This document shows positions 8,727 through 14,339 of a DNA stretch of 64,000 nucleotides, piece by piece (position 1 is the stretch's first letter; each line of letters starts with the position of its first letter). The stretch lies in the NCBI RefSeq assembly GCF_027359355.1, contig NZ_CP114777.1, forward strand, positions 248,001-312,000, in the 5' to 3' direction. Source of the DNA: Prochlorococcus marinus str. MIT 1214. GTDB taxonomy: Bacteria; Cyanobacteriota; Cyanobacteriia; PCC-6307; Cyanobiaceae. The notes beneath the pieces are model-generated. The model made no database searches. It had not been told where the DNA came from and saw only the letters and a list, made by a program, of their open reading frames with translations. The translations under genes were made by a program, and so were the position numbers.

Positions 8727-9500
8727 ATGTTAAATAATGATATTCTTTCTCAAATTAGTTTGGGATTTATATCACTTTTTTCTAATTTTATCTCTGCTTT
8801 ATCTGGAGGAGGTGCAGGTTTAATACAACTTCCAGCTCTTCTTTTTTTGGGATTGCCATTCTCAACAGCTTTGGCAACTCATAAAGTTGCTAGTGTTGCG
8901 CTTGGATTTGGCGCATCAATCCCTCACCTAAAGAAAAATAGATTACAAATAAAATTTGCTTTTTTGATATTAATTTCTGGTATCCCTGGTGTTTTATTAG
9001 GCGCCTATACGTCATCCATTTTACCTAATGATTTTTCTACTAGCATATTAGGGGTTTTGACTTTATTTCTTGGCTTTTATTCAATTAAGCAGAAACAACT
9101 TGGCAGCTCAACTCAAGAAATTGAAATTAATAAGTTAAGAAAAATTATTGGCTTATTAGGTCTTTTTATTATTGGGTTCTTAAATGGCTATCTTTCTTCT
9201 GGTACAGGACTATTTGTAACAATTTGGATGATAAAAATGTATAATTTATCTTTTTCTGTTGCGGTTGCTTATACCTTGATTTTTGTAGGTATTTTTTGGA
9301 ATGGAATTGGAGCACTTTCTTTAGGATTAACGGGAAATATTATTTGGAGCTATATCCCTGTTTTAATTTTAGGCTCTCTTATGGGTGGTTATTTTGGCGC
9401 TTATTTTTCAATAATTAAAGGTTCCAAATTTATTAAATTTGTTTTTGAATTAGTGTCTTTTGCTGTTGGCATTTCATTACTAATTAAAGCCTTTTTATGA
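8727..9500 (+). CDS. TauE/SafE-family sulfite/anion exporter-like permease
   Basis: Membrane protein of 257 residues with about eight hydrophobic helices. The N-terminal helix carries the family hallmark (SALSGGGAGLIQLPALLF), repeated in the second half (GFLNGYLSSGTGLFVTIWM), as expected for the internally duplicated TauE/SafE fold. Members export sulfite, sulfoacetate or other organic anions, but many are uncharacterised and the substrate is unknown here. It is monocistronic and convergent with gpgS. Confidence 0.82.
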   Translation: MLNNDILSQISLGFISLFSNFISALSGGGAGLIQLPALLFLGLPFSTALATHKVASVALGFGASIPHLKKNRLQIKFAFLILISGIPGVLLGAYTSSILPNDFSTSILGVLTLFLGFYSIKQKQLGSSTQEIEINKLRKIIGLLGLFIIGFLNGYLSSGTGLFVTIWMIKMYNLSFSVAVAYTLIFVGIFWNGIGALSLGLTGNIIWSYIPVLILGSLMGGYFGAYFSIIKGSKFIKFVFELVSFAVGISLLIKAFL

Positions 9501-9522: not shown

Positions 9523-10710
9523 TTATATGCATCCGGCCTTTTCTAAATCATCTTGCAATTTACTCTCACAGTCTAAAACCCTTGCCCAGCAAGGTAATTG
9601 CTGCTTTACAGGTGATTCAAGGAATTTATTGATTGCAGGTCTTAATAGTTTTCCAAAAGTATGAACTGCTAACTCTTCTTTATGTCGACTGTAGGGTAAT
9701 TGATTTACTGAGGAATCTAAACTAAATTGTTTTACCCTATCTTCCCCTGCTCTTCTATACAAAACCTCCAAATTTGCTAATTGAGAACTAGTAAGTGTTC
9801 TTGCTTCATGCTCCATTAATCCTCTCAGAACACTTGATAATATTTCTGTTGACATTTTTTGTAAGCCCTCACTAGCTTTTGAACCTATTTCTTTGTGCTT
9901 ATGGTCAAAAATCCCTAAATCAACTTGTGCGATTCTTGATATTCTTACATTTTTATAGACCTCTGAGAGAAGCCCTATCTCTAAGCCCCAATCGCATGGG
10001 ATTCTTAAATTCATTGCTAAGTCTGTAGTAAATGCAAACTCCCCAGCTAATGGATATCTAAAAGACTGTAGATATTGGAGGAATGGGACGTTCCCGATTA
10101 ATTGTTCCAAACTTGAGAGGAGTGGACCTACAAATAATCTTGTCGCTCTACCTTGTAGTGCATTTGTCTCAAGGGATAAACGGCTGTAAAAAGCTTTTAC
10201 GTATGAAATCCCATTTGACTTTTCGAGTAAGGGGCTCAGCATTCTCGATGGATAATTAGAGTTGAATGTTCTGATGTCAGCATCAAAAAGTGCTACGACT
10301 TCAGAGCTTTTTGTCGCAACACCAACTCCTTGCCATACTGCCCAACCTTTGCCAGGAACACCTAAAAGATCCAGACCGTTCTTTTCCTGGTTTTTTAGTA
10401 ATTCAATAACTCTTGGACTATTAGTCCATTGGACGTGAACTGGGAAGGGCATTTCTTTAAAGAAATCCCTTGCATTAGCTACCTCATCTTTATTACTTGC
10501 AGATAGGGCTATGACTAATTGGTTTAAATTTTTTAATTCTTTTAAAGTGCTTCTTATAAGTTTTAATGCTGGCCTACTGAACTCGTCGAATAGGCATGGA
10601 ATTAGTATTGATGTTGGCCGTTTTAATAGGTCTTTGTTTAATTGAGATACTGGATCTTTTGCTAGTCCGTACTCATGAATAGTTGTGATTAAACCCTGCT
10701 GAAAGTCCAT
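9523..10710 (-). CDS. gpgS: Glucosyl-3-phosphoglycerate synthase
   Basis: GT81-type retaining glycosyltransferase of 395 residues. It joins glucose from an NDP-glucose donor to 3-phosphoglycerate, giving glucosyl-3-phosphoglycerate, the precursor of the compatible solute glucosylglycerate. The GT-A motif is visible as ALFDADIRTF, with the metal-binding DAD at residues 143-145. A GKGWAVW loop and a long helical C-terminus also fit the family. It lies head-to-head with the phosphorylase, phosphatase and kinase genes, sharing a 72-base intergenic region, so the two arms are probably co-regulated. A mannosyl-3-phosphoglycerate synthase is the main alternative. Confidence 0.85.
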   Translation of the reverse strand: MDFQQGLITTIHEYGLAKDPVSQLNKDLLKRPTSILIPCLFDEFSRPALKLIRSTLKELKNLNQLVIALSASNKDEVANARDFFKEMPFPVHVQWTNSPRVIELLKNQEKNGLDLLGVPGKGWAVWQGVGVATKSSEVVALFDADIRTFNSNYPSRMLSPLLEKSNGISYVKAFYSRLSLETNALQGRATRLFVGPLLSSLEQLIGNVPFLQYLQSFRYPLAGEFAFTTDLAMNLRIPCDWGLEIGLLSEVYKNVRISRIAQVDLGIFDHKHKEIGSKASEGLQKMSTEILSSVLRGLMEHEARTLTSSQLANLEVLYRRAGEDRVKQFSLDSSVNQLPYSRHKEELAVHTFGKLLRPAINKFLESPVKQQLPCWARVLDCESKLQDDLEKAGCI

Positions 10711-10782
10711 TCAAGAAAAAAGTTTTACAGATTCAATGTGGGAGCTACGATGAGGTAGAGAAGATTGTTTTCCTTTTAAAGA

Positions 10783-12534
10783 GTGTCTGAGCTGGATAGT
10801 GAATTAGATGAGTTGAGATTGTCTCTCAGAGAAATTTATCCTGAGCATACTGAACAAGAAATCAATTCAGTGTGGTCTCAATTGTTGCAGATTCTAGATC
10901 CATTTCGTGTTGTTCAAGACACCCATGAATTAAATAATGAATCAATTTGGGATTCTTCAAGTGTAGTTTTGATTACTTACCCAGATTCAATTTATAGGAA
11001 AGATGAATCAACTTTAAAAACATTAACTGAATTCGTAAAAAATAGATTAAGAGGCCTTTCTTCAGTCATACATGTTTTACCATTTCTTCCTTCTACAAGT
11101 GATGGAGGATTTGCTGTCTCTAATCATGAAAAAATTGAAGATACATTTGGAAATTGGAATGATTTAAAGGATTTATCAAGTAACCATAAAATAATGGCAG
11201 ATCTTGTTTTAAATCATGTCTCTTCTTCTCATCCATGGGTTCATCAATTTATAAAATCAGAGGACCCTGGCTCGTCGTACATTGTTGCGCCTTCTGAGAC
11301 TCATATTTGGGAGCAAGTGATAAGGCCTAGAAATTCATCTCTTTTCACTCAAATCAATACAGACAAGGGCTTTAGGAATGTTTGGACAACTTTTGGGCCA
11401 GATCAGATTGATGTTGAGTGGAGAAATCCATATGTTTTTTTAGAATTTTTGAAATTATTGGTTAGATATGTAACTAATGGAGCTGAATGGATTCGACTTG
11501 ATGCAATTGCATTTATTTGGAAGGAGCCATATACGACGTGTTTGCATTTGGAGCCAGTTCATTTAATAGTCAAGCTTTTAAATAAATGCTTGAAGATTAT
11601 TAAGCCAACCGCTGTATTAATTACCGAGACAAATGTTCCTGAGAAGGAAAATCTTTCTTATTTGATCGAAGGTAATGAAGCAAATCTCGCTTATAACTTT
11701 ACTCTACCTCCTTTATTATTAGAGGCTATTTATACAGGTAAAACAGATTTACTGAATGATTGGTTATCTAATTGGAATGAGTTGCCAAAACATACATCTC
11801 TGCTTAATTTCACTTCTTCACACGATGGCATTGGGTTAAGAGCATTAGAAGGAATTATGGACGAGAAGAGAGTCCATAATCTCTTGGTAGAATCAGAGAA
11901 GCGAGGAGGATTAGTTAGTCATCGCCGCCTGTCGAATGGAGAAGACCAGCCATATGAATTAAACATTAGTTGGTGGAGTGCTATGACTCATAATGGATCT
12001 GATATTACTTTATTTCAATTTGAACGTTTTTTGCTCAGTCAGTTATTCACTTTATCTTTGAAAGGAGTTCCAGCTTTTTACCTTCCATCTATTTTAGCAT
12101 CGCCTAATGATCTTGATTCTTTTAGAAAAACAGGGCAAAGAAGAGATTTAAATCGAGAGAAATTTGAGGCTAATAAATTACTTGAGGAACTTAAGAAATT
12201 TGATTCTCCATCCAGTAAAAATATTTCATATCTTACTCATATAGTTAAAGTTAGATCACGACTTAAAGCTTTTCATCCGGAGGAGAGTATGAAATGTATA
12301 TCAACTAATATTGATAATTGTGTAATTATTCAAAGAGGTTTAGATGAAGAAAGTGTTTATGTCTTTTGTAATATGTCTAGCAAATGTATAAATATTTCTA
12401 CATTAAACGAACTTGATTTTTCTGAATTTTCTTCGAATAAACGTTTGATGGATAATATTACAGGCTCCTATTTTAATACTGATACATTTAAGCTTAATCC
12501 ATATCAAGTGGTTTGGTTCTCTTTAGTTGAATAG
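10783..12534 (+). CDS. GH13_18 glycoside phosphorylase, probable glucosylglycerate phosphorylase
   Basis: Sucrose-phosphorylase-like alpha-amylase-fold enzyme of 583 residues with a GTG start. The catalytic residues are visible: nucleophile Asp240 (WIRLDAIAF), acid/base Glu282 (LITETNV) and transition-state Asp348 (SSHDGIGLRAL). Sucrose phosphorylase and glucosylglycerate phosphorylase belong to the same subfamily. Because its neighbours make glucosylglycerate and phosphorylate glycerate, cleavage of glucosylglycerate to glucose-1-phosphate and glycerate is the likelier reaction. That choice rests on context, not on a residue I can verify. It overlaps or abuts the next gene, indicating an operon. 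Confidence 0.82.
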   Translation: MSELDSELDELRLSLREIYPEHTEQEINSVWSQLLQILDPFRVVQDTHELNNESIWDSSSVVLITYPDSIYRKDESTLKTLTEFVKNRLRGLSSVIHVLPFLPSTSDGGFAVSNHEKIEDTFGNWNDLKDLSSNHKIMADLVLNHVSSSHPWVHQFIKSEDPGSSYIVAPSETHIWEQVIRPRNSSLFTQINTDKGFRNVWTTFGPDQIDVEWRNPYVFLEFLKLLVRYVTNGAEWIRLDAIAFIWKEPYTTCLHLEPVHLIVKLLNKCLKIIKPTAVLITETNVPEKENLSYLIEGNEANLAYNFTLPPLLLEAIYTGKTDLLNDWLSNWNELPKHTSLLNFTSSHDGIGLRALEGIMDEKRVHNLLVESEKRGGLVSHRRLSNGEDQPYELNISWWSAMTHNGSDITLFQFERFLLSQLFTLSLKGVPAFYLPSILASPNDLDSFRKTGQRRDLNREKFEANKLLEELKKFDSPSSKNISYLTHIVKVRSRLKAFHPEESMKCISTNIDNCVIIQRGLDEESVYVFCNMSSKCINISTLNELDFSEFSSNKRLMDNITGSYFNTDTFKLNPYQVVWFSLVE

Positions 12535-12538
12535 TCCC

Positions 12539-13345
12539 ATGAAAAATAACTCTAAATATTGGATAGTTACAGATCTTGATGGAACATTAATGGACGATAG
12601 TTACGATATTTCTCCTGCAAAGAAAACATTGAATATGTTATCAGGAATGGCTATTCCTGTAATACCTTGTACAAGTAAAACAGCTTCTGAGGTTAGATAT
12701 TTTAGAGATGAGAATGGATTAACAGATCCTTTTATTGTCGAGAATGGTGCGGCTATTTATGGGAACAATTTAAATAATTCTTCTGAGTGGGAATTGATCT
12801 TAGGTAAAAGTTATAAGGAATTGAGAATTACATTAATGAATATATCTAAAGAAGTTGGCTACCATTTAATTCCTTTGAATGATTTAAGTAAAAATCAAAT
12901 ATTTAGACTTACTGGTTTATCAGATCAAGGTATTATTAGAGCCTTAGATAGACAGTGGAGTGTTCCGTTCTTAAATCCTCCTGATGAAATCTTTGAAAAA
13001 GTAAAGCTTATTTGTGATTCTTATAATGTTCATGTTTTCAAGGGGAATCGGATGAGTCATTTACTCTCTAGTGAAAGTCATAAAGGACAAGCTGTTAATA
13101 AATTAAAGGTATATCTACAGAACAAAGATGTAAAGATTATTGCACTTGGCGATTCTCAAAATGATCTTCCTTTACTTGAATATGCAGATATATCTATTGT
13201 TATTCCTGGTAAGAATGGTCCAAATAAGTATCTACAGGACGGCATTGACAAAGGTTCTTTTAGATTAGCGAATGCGCCTCATGCAGAGGGGTGGTCAAAT
13301 AGTGTTGAAGATGTTATTAAAAGCTTTGAGAATTATGCTAAATAA
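12539..13345 (+). CDS. gpgP: Mannosyl/glucosyl-3-phosphoglycerate phosphatase (HAD family)
   Basis: HAD hydrolase of the MPGP subfamily, about 268 residues. Motif I is VTDLDGTLMDD with the nucleophile Asp. The CTSKTASEV and PFIVENGAAIY motifs are characteristic of mannosyl-3-phosphoglycerate phosphatases, and motif IV is ALGDSQNDLPLL. It would remove phosphate from glucosyl-3-phosphoglycerate made by the divergent synthase, releasing glucosylglycerate. The frame is open to a TTG at 12527 inside the upstream gene; ATG at 12539 fits the domain start better. It overlaps the following gene by 11 bases. Confidence 0.83.
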   Translation: MKNNSKYWIVTDLDGTLMDDSYDISPAKKTLNMLSGMAIPVIPCTSKTASEVRYFRDENGLTDPFIVENGAAIYGNNLNNSSEWELILGKSYKELRITLMNISKEVGYHLIPLNDLSKNQIFRLTGLSDQGIIRALDRQWSVPFLNPPDEIFEKVKLICDSYNVHVFKGNRMSHLLSSESHKGQAVNKLKVYLQNKDVKIIALGDSQNDLPLLEYADISIVIPGKNGPNKYLQDGIDKGSFRLANAPHAEGWSNSVEDVIKSFENYAK

Positions 13346-14339
13346 GCATTATGATATAAGCGATATTTTTCCAAAGGATATAAGGAATGATTTCCTTTTT
13401 CCTCTTGATACATATCGCTTATTTCTTGAAGGTTTATCGATTAACCCCTCACTTTTTTTTCATAAATGGTCTGATATTAATAGGCAATCAAATATTGATA
13501 AATATTGGAAACCAAATACAAAATCAGATTGGAAATGGTCATTAACATTTCCATTTTTTTCTGTCTTAGAAAATTATATTAATTGTATCAATAATCCAAT
13601 AATAATAGGCTTTTCAGGCCTACCTGGTTCTGGTAAGTCTACTTTAGGATTTTGGATTGATAGTGTTGCAAAAGAATTATCTTTAGATATTAAAGTTATA
13701 TCTTTGGATGATTTTTATTTGCCTGGACAAGAAATGGATATTGCTATTAATGGTAATCCATGGAATGTTCCTAGAGGCTTCCCTGGAAGTCATTCTTTAG
13801 ATTTATTGCATCAATCACTAGACACCTTTTTAAATACTGGTGTTTTATGTAGCCCTACTTTTGATAAATCTTTAAGAGATGGGAGAGGAGATAGGTCCGG
13901 GTGGTGTGAATTAAAAACTAGAGTTTTAATTTTGGAGGGATGGTTTGTAGGCTGCGAACCAGTTTCAGATTTATTAAAAATTGATGAATTGGCTGAGGAC
14001 GAATTTAACTTATCATTGACTCAGAGTGAAAAAGACTATCGTATTCTGATTCAAGAATCACTGCGTGAATATAGTAAAATATGGAAAAAATTTGAAAAGA
14101 TTTGGCATCTTAAATCTTCTCAATTTAATAATACAATTTTATGGAAATCGCAGCAAGAAGATGAAATGATTAAATCAAAAGGATCAGGTTTGAAAGGCAA
14201 TAATTTAACAGATTTTATACGCATGATACAAACTTCGATTCCGCAGAATTCTTTATCCTATATTAATTCAGATACCACTGTTGAAATCAATCAAAACCGT
14301 AGGATATATAAATTAATGACTAATGACTACCATTTTTAA
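13335..14339 (+). CDS. glyK: D-glycerate 3-kinase-like P-loop kinase
   Basis: P-loop kinase of about 334 residues. Walker A is GFSGLPGSGKSTLGF, followed by SLDDFYLPG and a VLILEGWFVG strand, the layout of plant and cyanobacterial D-glycerate 3-kinases of the phosphoribulokinase/uridine kinase superfamily. It phosphorylates glycerate to 3-phosphoglycerate, the last step of photorespiration and here also the fate of glycerate released from glucosylglycerate. The frame runs back to 13272, but ATG at 13335 gives a short overlap with gpgP and a sensible N-terminus. A weak A/T hairpin followed by T-rich DNA lies at 14364-14390. Confidence 0.82.
   Translation: MLNKHYDISDIFPKDIRNDFLFPLDTYRLFLEGLSINPSLFFHKWSDINRQSNIDKYWKPNTKSDWKWSLTFPFFSVLENYINCINNPIIIGFSGLPGSGKSTLGFWIDSVAKELSLDIKVISLDDFYLPGQEMDIAINGNPWNVPRGFPGSHSLDLLHQSLDTFLNTGVLCSPTFDKSLRDGRGDRSGWCELKTRVLILEGWFVGCEPVSDLLKIDELAEDEFNLSLTQSEKDYRILIQESLREYSKIWKKFEKIWHLKSSQFNNTILWKSQQEDEMIKSKGSGLKGNNLTDFIRMIQTSIPQNSLSYINSDTTVEINQNRRIYKLMTNDYHF

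Follow-up and report, generated by a model that had tools for sequence, protein, structure and literature searches.

The closest described system is the glucosylglycerate cluster of Prochlorococcus NATL2A, published in 2024 (PMC11631117). The major solutes of this strain are glucosylglycerate and sucrose (PMC11631117, citing Klahn et al. 2010), and in its dark-tolerant cells transcripts for the gpgS step go down and those for recovery go up (PMC11631117). The phosphorylase gene is often found next to genes for glycerate kinase, gpgS and gpgP (PMC7178133), and two features of the enzyme, the motif (T/S)ETN at strand 5 together with a glutamate in loop A, separate glucosylglycerate phosphorylases from sucrose phosphorylases (PMC7178133, PMC6720575). 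Mutation of either Asn275 or Glu383 in the Meiothermus enzyme, both of which are assigned to glycerate binding, lowers activity severely (PMC7178133, PMC6720575). For the last step, characterised class III glycerate kinases yield 3-phosphoglycerate, and the presence of this class in Prochlorococcus and Synechococcus has already been remarked (PMC2063504).

We analysed a stretch of 64,000 nucleotides (the window) from a 1.93-Mb Prochlorococcus genome, in which four genes that would make and recover glucosylglycerate lie together beside a transporter gene. The features are as follows, each with the sequence evidence behind its assignment:

8727..9500, + strand: TauE/SafE-family transporter (PF01925, E=1.9e-41), tail-to-tail with gpgS
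9523..10710, - strand: gpgS, glucosyl-3-phosphoglycerate synthase, GT81-type (NCBIfam NF040724, GpgS structures, kept motifs)
10711..10782, no strand: divergent intergenic region of 72 bp, presumably holding both promoters (spacer comparison and consensus scan)
10783..12534, + strand: ggaP, GH13_18 2-O-alpha-glucosylglycerate phosphorylase (TETN, loop-A Glu, similarity to YcjM)
12527..13345, + strand: gpgP, glucosyl-3-phosphoglycerate phosphatase, MPGP-type HAD-IIB (NF001217, TIGR01486, HAD motifs)
13335..14339, + strand: glyK, class III D-glycerate 3-kinase, GLYK (solved relatives, P-loop; listed ORF start 13272)

A first-pass annotation had described the four genes as one divergent unit, and the ORF check found them at the positions and in the layout it claimed. 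Two starts probably need adjustment. For gpgP the ATG at 12539 is a more likely start than 12527, and since relatives of GLYK align with the listed ORF only from about residue 22-27 onward, the ATG at 13335, overlapping the gpgP stop, is the more likely start of the kinase. The named relatives of the phosphorylase come from Prochlorococcus single-cell genomes, at 85-90% identity. The divergent order, with gpgS facing phosphorylase and gpgP, was seen in every genus inspected, and a layout that recurs across so many genera is not due to chance. The four-gene set is confirmed as real.

Three of the four identities follow from profiles, structures and motifs. The gpgS product matches the GpgS family model NF040724 (E=1.2e-118 over 392 aa, with a score below the equivalog cut-off of 700) and resembles solved GpgS structures such as 7p5l and 3e25; the Asp-x-Asp metal motif expected of the family is present as FDADI, and in an alignment of 56 rows the segments FDADI[RK]TF, GKGWAVW and FDHKHK are conserved in practically every one. 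The gpgP product exceeds the cut-offs of both NF001217 (435 bits against 373) and TIGR01486 (296.6 against 164.8), is similar to solved MPGP relatives, and belongs with the MPGP/GpgP HAD-IIB phosphatases in conserving DLDGT, CTSKT and GDSxND. The kinase is closest among solved proteins to the D-glycerate 3-kinases 7xpc (E=4.6e-16), 1odf and 6ckg, which puts it in class III, and carries the P-loop GLPGSGKST and the segment DDFYLP; from its class its product is predicted to be 3-phosphoglycerate. It is present in single copy, and a profile search of the source genome for PF02595 glycerate kinases found none, which leaves GLYK as the one glycerate kinase seen there. As a separate matter, about 340 locus tags separate the gpgP measured in NATL1A (NATL1_05721; PMC9606707 Table 4) from gpgS (NATL1_09131), so the gene measured is probably not the gpgP of the cluster, which adjoins gpgS in the window's genus.

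The phosphorylase called for more care, as it had been left undecided between glucosylglycerate and sucrose. Its best solved relatives are GH13_18 phosphorylases, the catalytic Asp/Glu/Asp are present, and it is the sole such gene in the source genome. The acid/base site reads TETN (aa 281-284) and loop A carries the glutamate in PYELN (within aa 389-394). When 57 rows including E. coli YcjM, a member assigned by experiment, are aligned, 56 have TETN and one SETN, and the loop-A glutamate occurs in all 57, aligned with the Gln of YQVN in BaSP. Both features place the protein with the glucosylglycerate phosphorylases (EC 2.4.1.352), most other clades having Gln in loop A. The enzyme shares 34% identity and 318 bits with YcjM compared to 154 bits with the nearest solved sucrose phosphorylase, a rough comparison as the two scores come from different programs. 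It scores 186.2 bits with the sucrose_gtfA model (TIGR03852), compared to an equivalog cut-off of 334.4, and so appears as kin to sucrose phosphorylase but outside that equivalog. The earlier doubt is thereby largely settled in favour of glucosylglycerate, with sucrose disfavoured.

We looked for the same genes across 250 genomes of the family, taking a match to gpgS as close at E<1e-100 and counting by hand from the tables. Close gpgS occurs in 145 of the 250, and all but three of these (142/145) also have a close phosphorylase; no genome has the phosphorylase only, though the family genomes are related by descent and the counts are not independent. The exceptions are of different kinds. G247 is explained by a contig end. 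In G014 (L052:6455-8351) GLYK adjoins what is left of gpgS, a broken 3′ remnant, and gpgP and the phosphorylase are gone. In G055 (L051:5497-9246) gpgS, gpgP and GLYK are intact, and the phosphorylase survives only as a remnant broken by many stops. G055 is thus a natural make-without-recover lineage, so that at least one lineage can do without recovery, and partial losses of this sort offer natural comparisons for judging what recovery is worth.

Assembled from these parts, the cycle would begin with GpgS joining glucose from a nucleotide-sugar to 3-phosphoglycerate, after which GpgP would take off the phosphate and so yield glucosylglycerate, the compatible solute. The GH13_18 enzyme would use phosphate to split surplus solute, releasing glucose-1-phosphate and D-glycerate, and the latter would be returned by GLYK to 3-phosphoglycerate. 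With gpgS placed opposite the recovery genes and only 72 bp away, making and recovering could be controlled in opposite senses, and such opposite transcript behaviour has been seen in NATL2A (PMC11631117). The split into two arms is not clean, since gpgP, needed for synthesis, sits in the recovery transcript, and both the loss of the phosphorylase in G055 and the report that gpgS falls only modestly in NATL1A at low salinity also count against the cycle. The family assignments of all four enzymes are shown by sequence, the reactions are predicted from characterised relatives, and the way in which flux runs in the cell is an inference. On balance we put the probability of a closed glucosylglycerate cycle encoded here at about 0.93, and the making and recovering of the solute by GpgS, GpgP, phosphorylase and GLYK, as first proposed, is strongly supported by signatures, co-occurrence and published work.

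Between gpgS and the phosphorylase the window's genus has a spacer of 71-72 bp that hardly varies; in the small g9 genomes it measures about 50 bp, elsewhere 58-134 bp. The spacer of the window contains TTTACA-16-TACGAT on the + strand at 10724-10751, in a region that as a whole was not above shuffles in the consensus scan; promoter and terminator matches were at or near shuffle level and were not used as evidence. Inspection for an NtcA box (GTA-N8-TAC) showed none in the spacer. Separately, 10711-10782 holds a CTAC-N6-GTAG inverted repeat, a possible regulator site that the window's genus largely conserves.

The alternative that survives best concerns the kinase, which might be a photorespiratory GLYK that is merely located at the cluster, with glycerate from the osmolyte a minor input. 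That GLYK is single would suit this, as would its retention where the pathway is missing: it is kept in G010, G013, G029, G030 and G033, all without gpgS and phosphorylase, and GLYK-only genomes with GlcD or a glycolate-oxidase-like enzyme keep it. In Synechococcus-like genomes, moreover, GLYK lies far from the cluster, and three genera of these share a common unlinked site, FtsH-GLYK-HAD-RecJ. However, GLYK is found directly behind gpgP in the Prochlorococcus-like clades wherever the cluster is intact, and g9 genomes retain the linked kinase although the high-light strain MIT9312 is reported to have no detectable enzymes of 2-phosphoglycolate recovery (PMC9723591). The size and number of the small g9 genomes suggest that they are the high-light clade, in which case their linked kinase would serve glucosylglycerate only. 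Together these points leave a chiefly photorespiratory role doubtful. A tree of GLYK groups the three kinases of the unlinked site (support 96/94), which is its only usable grouping, as the backbone is unresolved and one row (L065) was wrongly extracted; proof of relocation by the tree was dropped on account of that backbone. No paper on the linkage of GLYK was found in a literature search that covered few subscription journals.

The first-pass annotation had also tied photorespiratory glycerate to turnover of the osmolyte, a claim that stands only in part. The single kinase, kept where the pathway is absent, is in its favour. Against it, no GlcD was found in the source genome, glyoxylate carboligase gave only below-cut-off matches there and in all other genomes searched (we read these matches as acetolactate-synthase-like enzymes), and the sole 2-hydroxyacid dehydrogenase match in the source genome is an ORF of 547 residues, SerA-like by size. 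The genome does encode an FMN 2-hydroxyacid oxidase, related among solved proteins to lactate and glycolate oxidases, and the oxidase of NATL2A has already been remarked (PMC9723591). A reductase of the TSR/HIBADH family at 66-950 of the window, about 10 kb from the cluster, is related to tartronate semialdehyde reductase and reaches the cut-off of no specific model; it is a candidate glycerate-forming reductase. A photorespiratory supply of glycerate is therefore possible in the source genome, and doubtful in high-light clades.

Some observations on the oxidase may be added. The FMN glycolate/lactate-oxidase-like gene lies at L113:1471-2655 on the - strand (genome C1, about 1,160,000), next to an ORF at L113:100-1452, also on the - strand, that resembles D-threonate/3-oxo-tetronate kinases; the pair might deal with a C4 acid sugar instead of glycolate. 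An FMN oxidase-like gene occurs without GlcD in G000, G029 and G055 and the reverse holds in G030, G033, G014 and G057, so that the seven genomes divide cleanly between the two.

The two roles of the kinase can be joined in a single reading. The single plant-type GLYK of the Prochlorococcus lineage may have left a housekeeping site, the FtsH-GLYK-HAD-RecJ order seen in Synechococcus-like genomes, and been captured by the osmolyte operon, to serve only glucosylglycerate recovery in clades without photorespiratory glycerate formation, and photorespiration where the osmolyte pathway was lost. We offer this tentatively, as something short of an even bet.

A second alternative is that the recovery genes act mainly on external glucosylglycerate, for instance from Alteromonas, taken up through the TauE/SafE protein, with turnover of the cell's own solute secondary. 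Uptake has been proposed for NATL2A from transcripts (PMC11631117), and here the TauE/SafE gene adjoins gpgS; it is probably the adjacent transporter of the published cluster and a putative member of the pathway. However, it converges tail-to-tail on gpgS and so lies outside the gpgS transcript, which tempers the published view of it as part of the operon. Among the genera sampled, adjacency is also limited to the window's own and one other (the gene is about 4 kb off in one g7 genome, and the g9 and g18 clusters sampled lack it), whereas phosphorylase and gpgS are linked everywhere. We therefore consider it unlikely that uptake is the main purpose, and prefer recovery of the cell's own glucosylglycerate.

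The weakest alternative, a sucrose phosphorylase or a bifunctional, sucrose-active enzyme like that of Xylanimonas placed beside gpgS for general sugar salvage, could draw on sucrose_gtfA being the nearest NCBIfam model, on the source genome probably making sucrose too (a 711-aa ORF with an S6PP domain has the size of a sucrose-phosphate synthase/phosphatase fusion) and on the sucrose-active glucosylglycerate phosphorylase already described, but with a score so far under the model's cut-off, both glycerate-binding signature residues present and invariant, and the tight co-occurrence with gpgS, it is highly improbable.

A closed glucosylglycerate cycle matters because glucosylglycerate, which contains no nitrogen, is among the major solutes of phototrophs abundant in the ocean. 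Phosphorolysis spares the energy of the glycosidic bond and would bring both halves back to central carbon metabolism, so the recovery route is relevant to acclimation to salt, survival in the dark and the exchange of carbon with heterotrophs.

Compared with known systems, the locus is correctly read, well explained and ordinary. The NATL2A cluster has the same co-located synthesis and recovery genes, the same adjacent transporter and the same route to glucose-1-phosphate and 3-phosphoglycerate; we saw no essential difference, and the window comes from a related genome. The EC 2.4.1.352 enzymes of Meiothermus silvanus, Spirochaeta thermophila and E. coli (YcjM) share GH13_18 membership, TETN and the loop-A glutamate with the window's enzyme, and genes for such enzymes, like that of the window, frequently neighbour glycerate kinase, gpgS and gpgP. 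YcjM differs, at 34% identity, in lying in a different glucoside cluster without gpgS. GpgS and GpgP of Synechococcus WH8102 (SYNW2436 and SYNW2434; PMC2874817) carry out the two-step synthesis expected here, and SYNW2435, between them in the gpgP operon, corresponds by position to the phosphorylase, although in Synechococcus-like genomes, unlike the window, the kinase lies elsewhere. The mycobacterial glucosylglycerate hydrolase breaks down the same solute, but hydrolysis loses the bond energy, whereas the window's enzyme is a phosphorylase-type GH13_18. The pathway, the enzymes and this cluster are thus already known, the enzyme and its gene context having been published in 2017-2020, and what the first-pass annotation offered as inference was already in the literature. 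The modest additions are the co-occurrence, the linkage and retention of the kinase, and the genome that has lost its phosphorylase.
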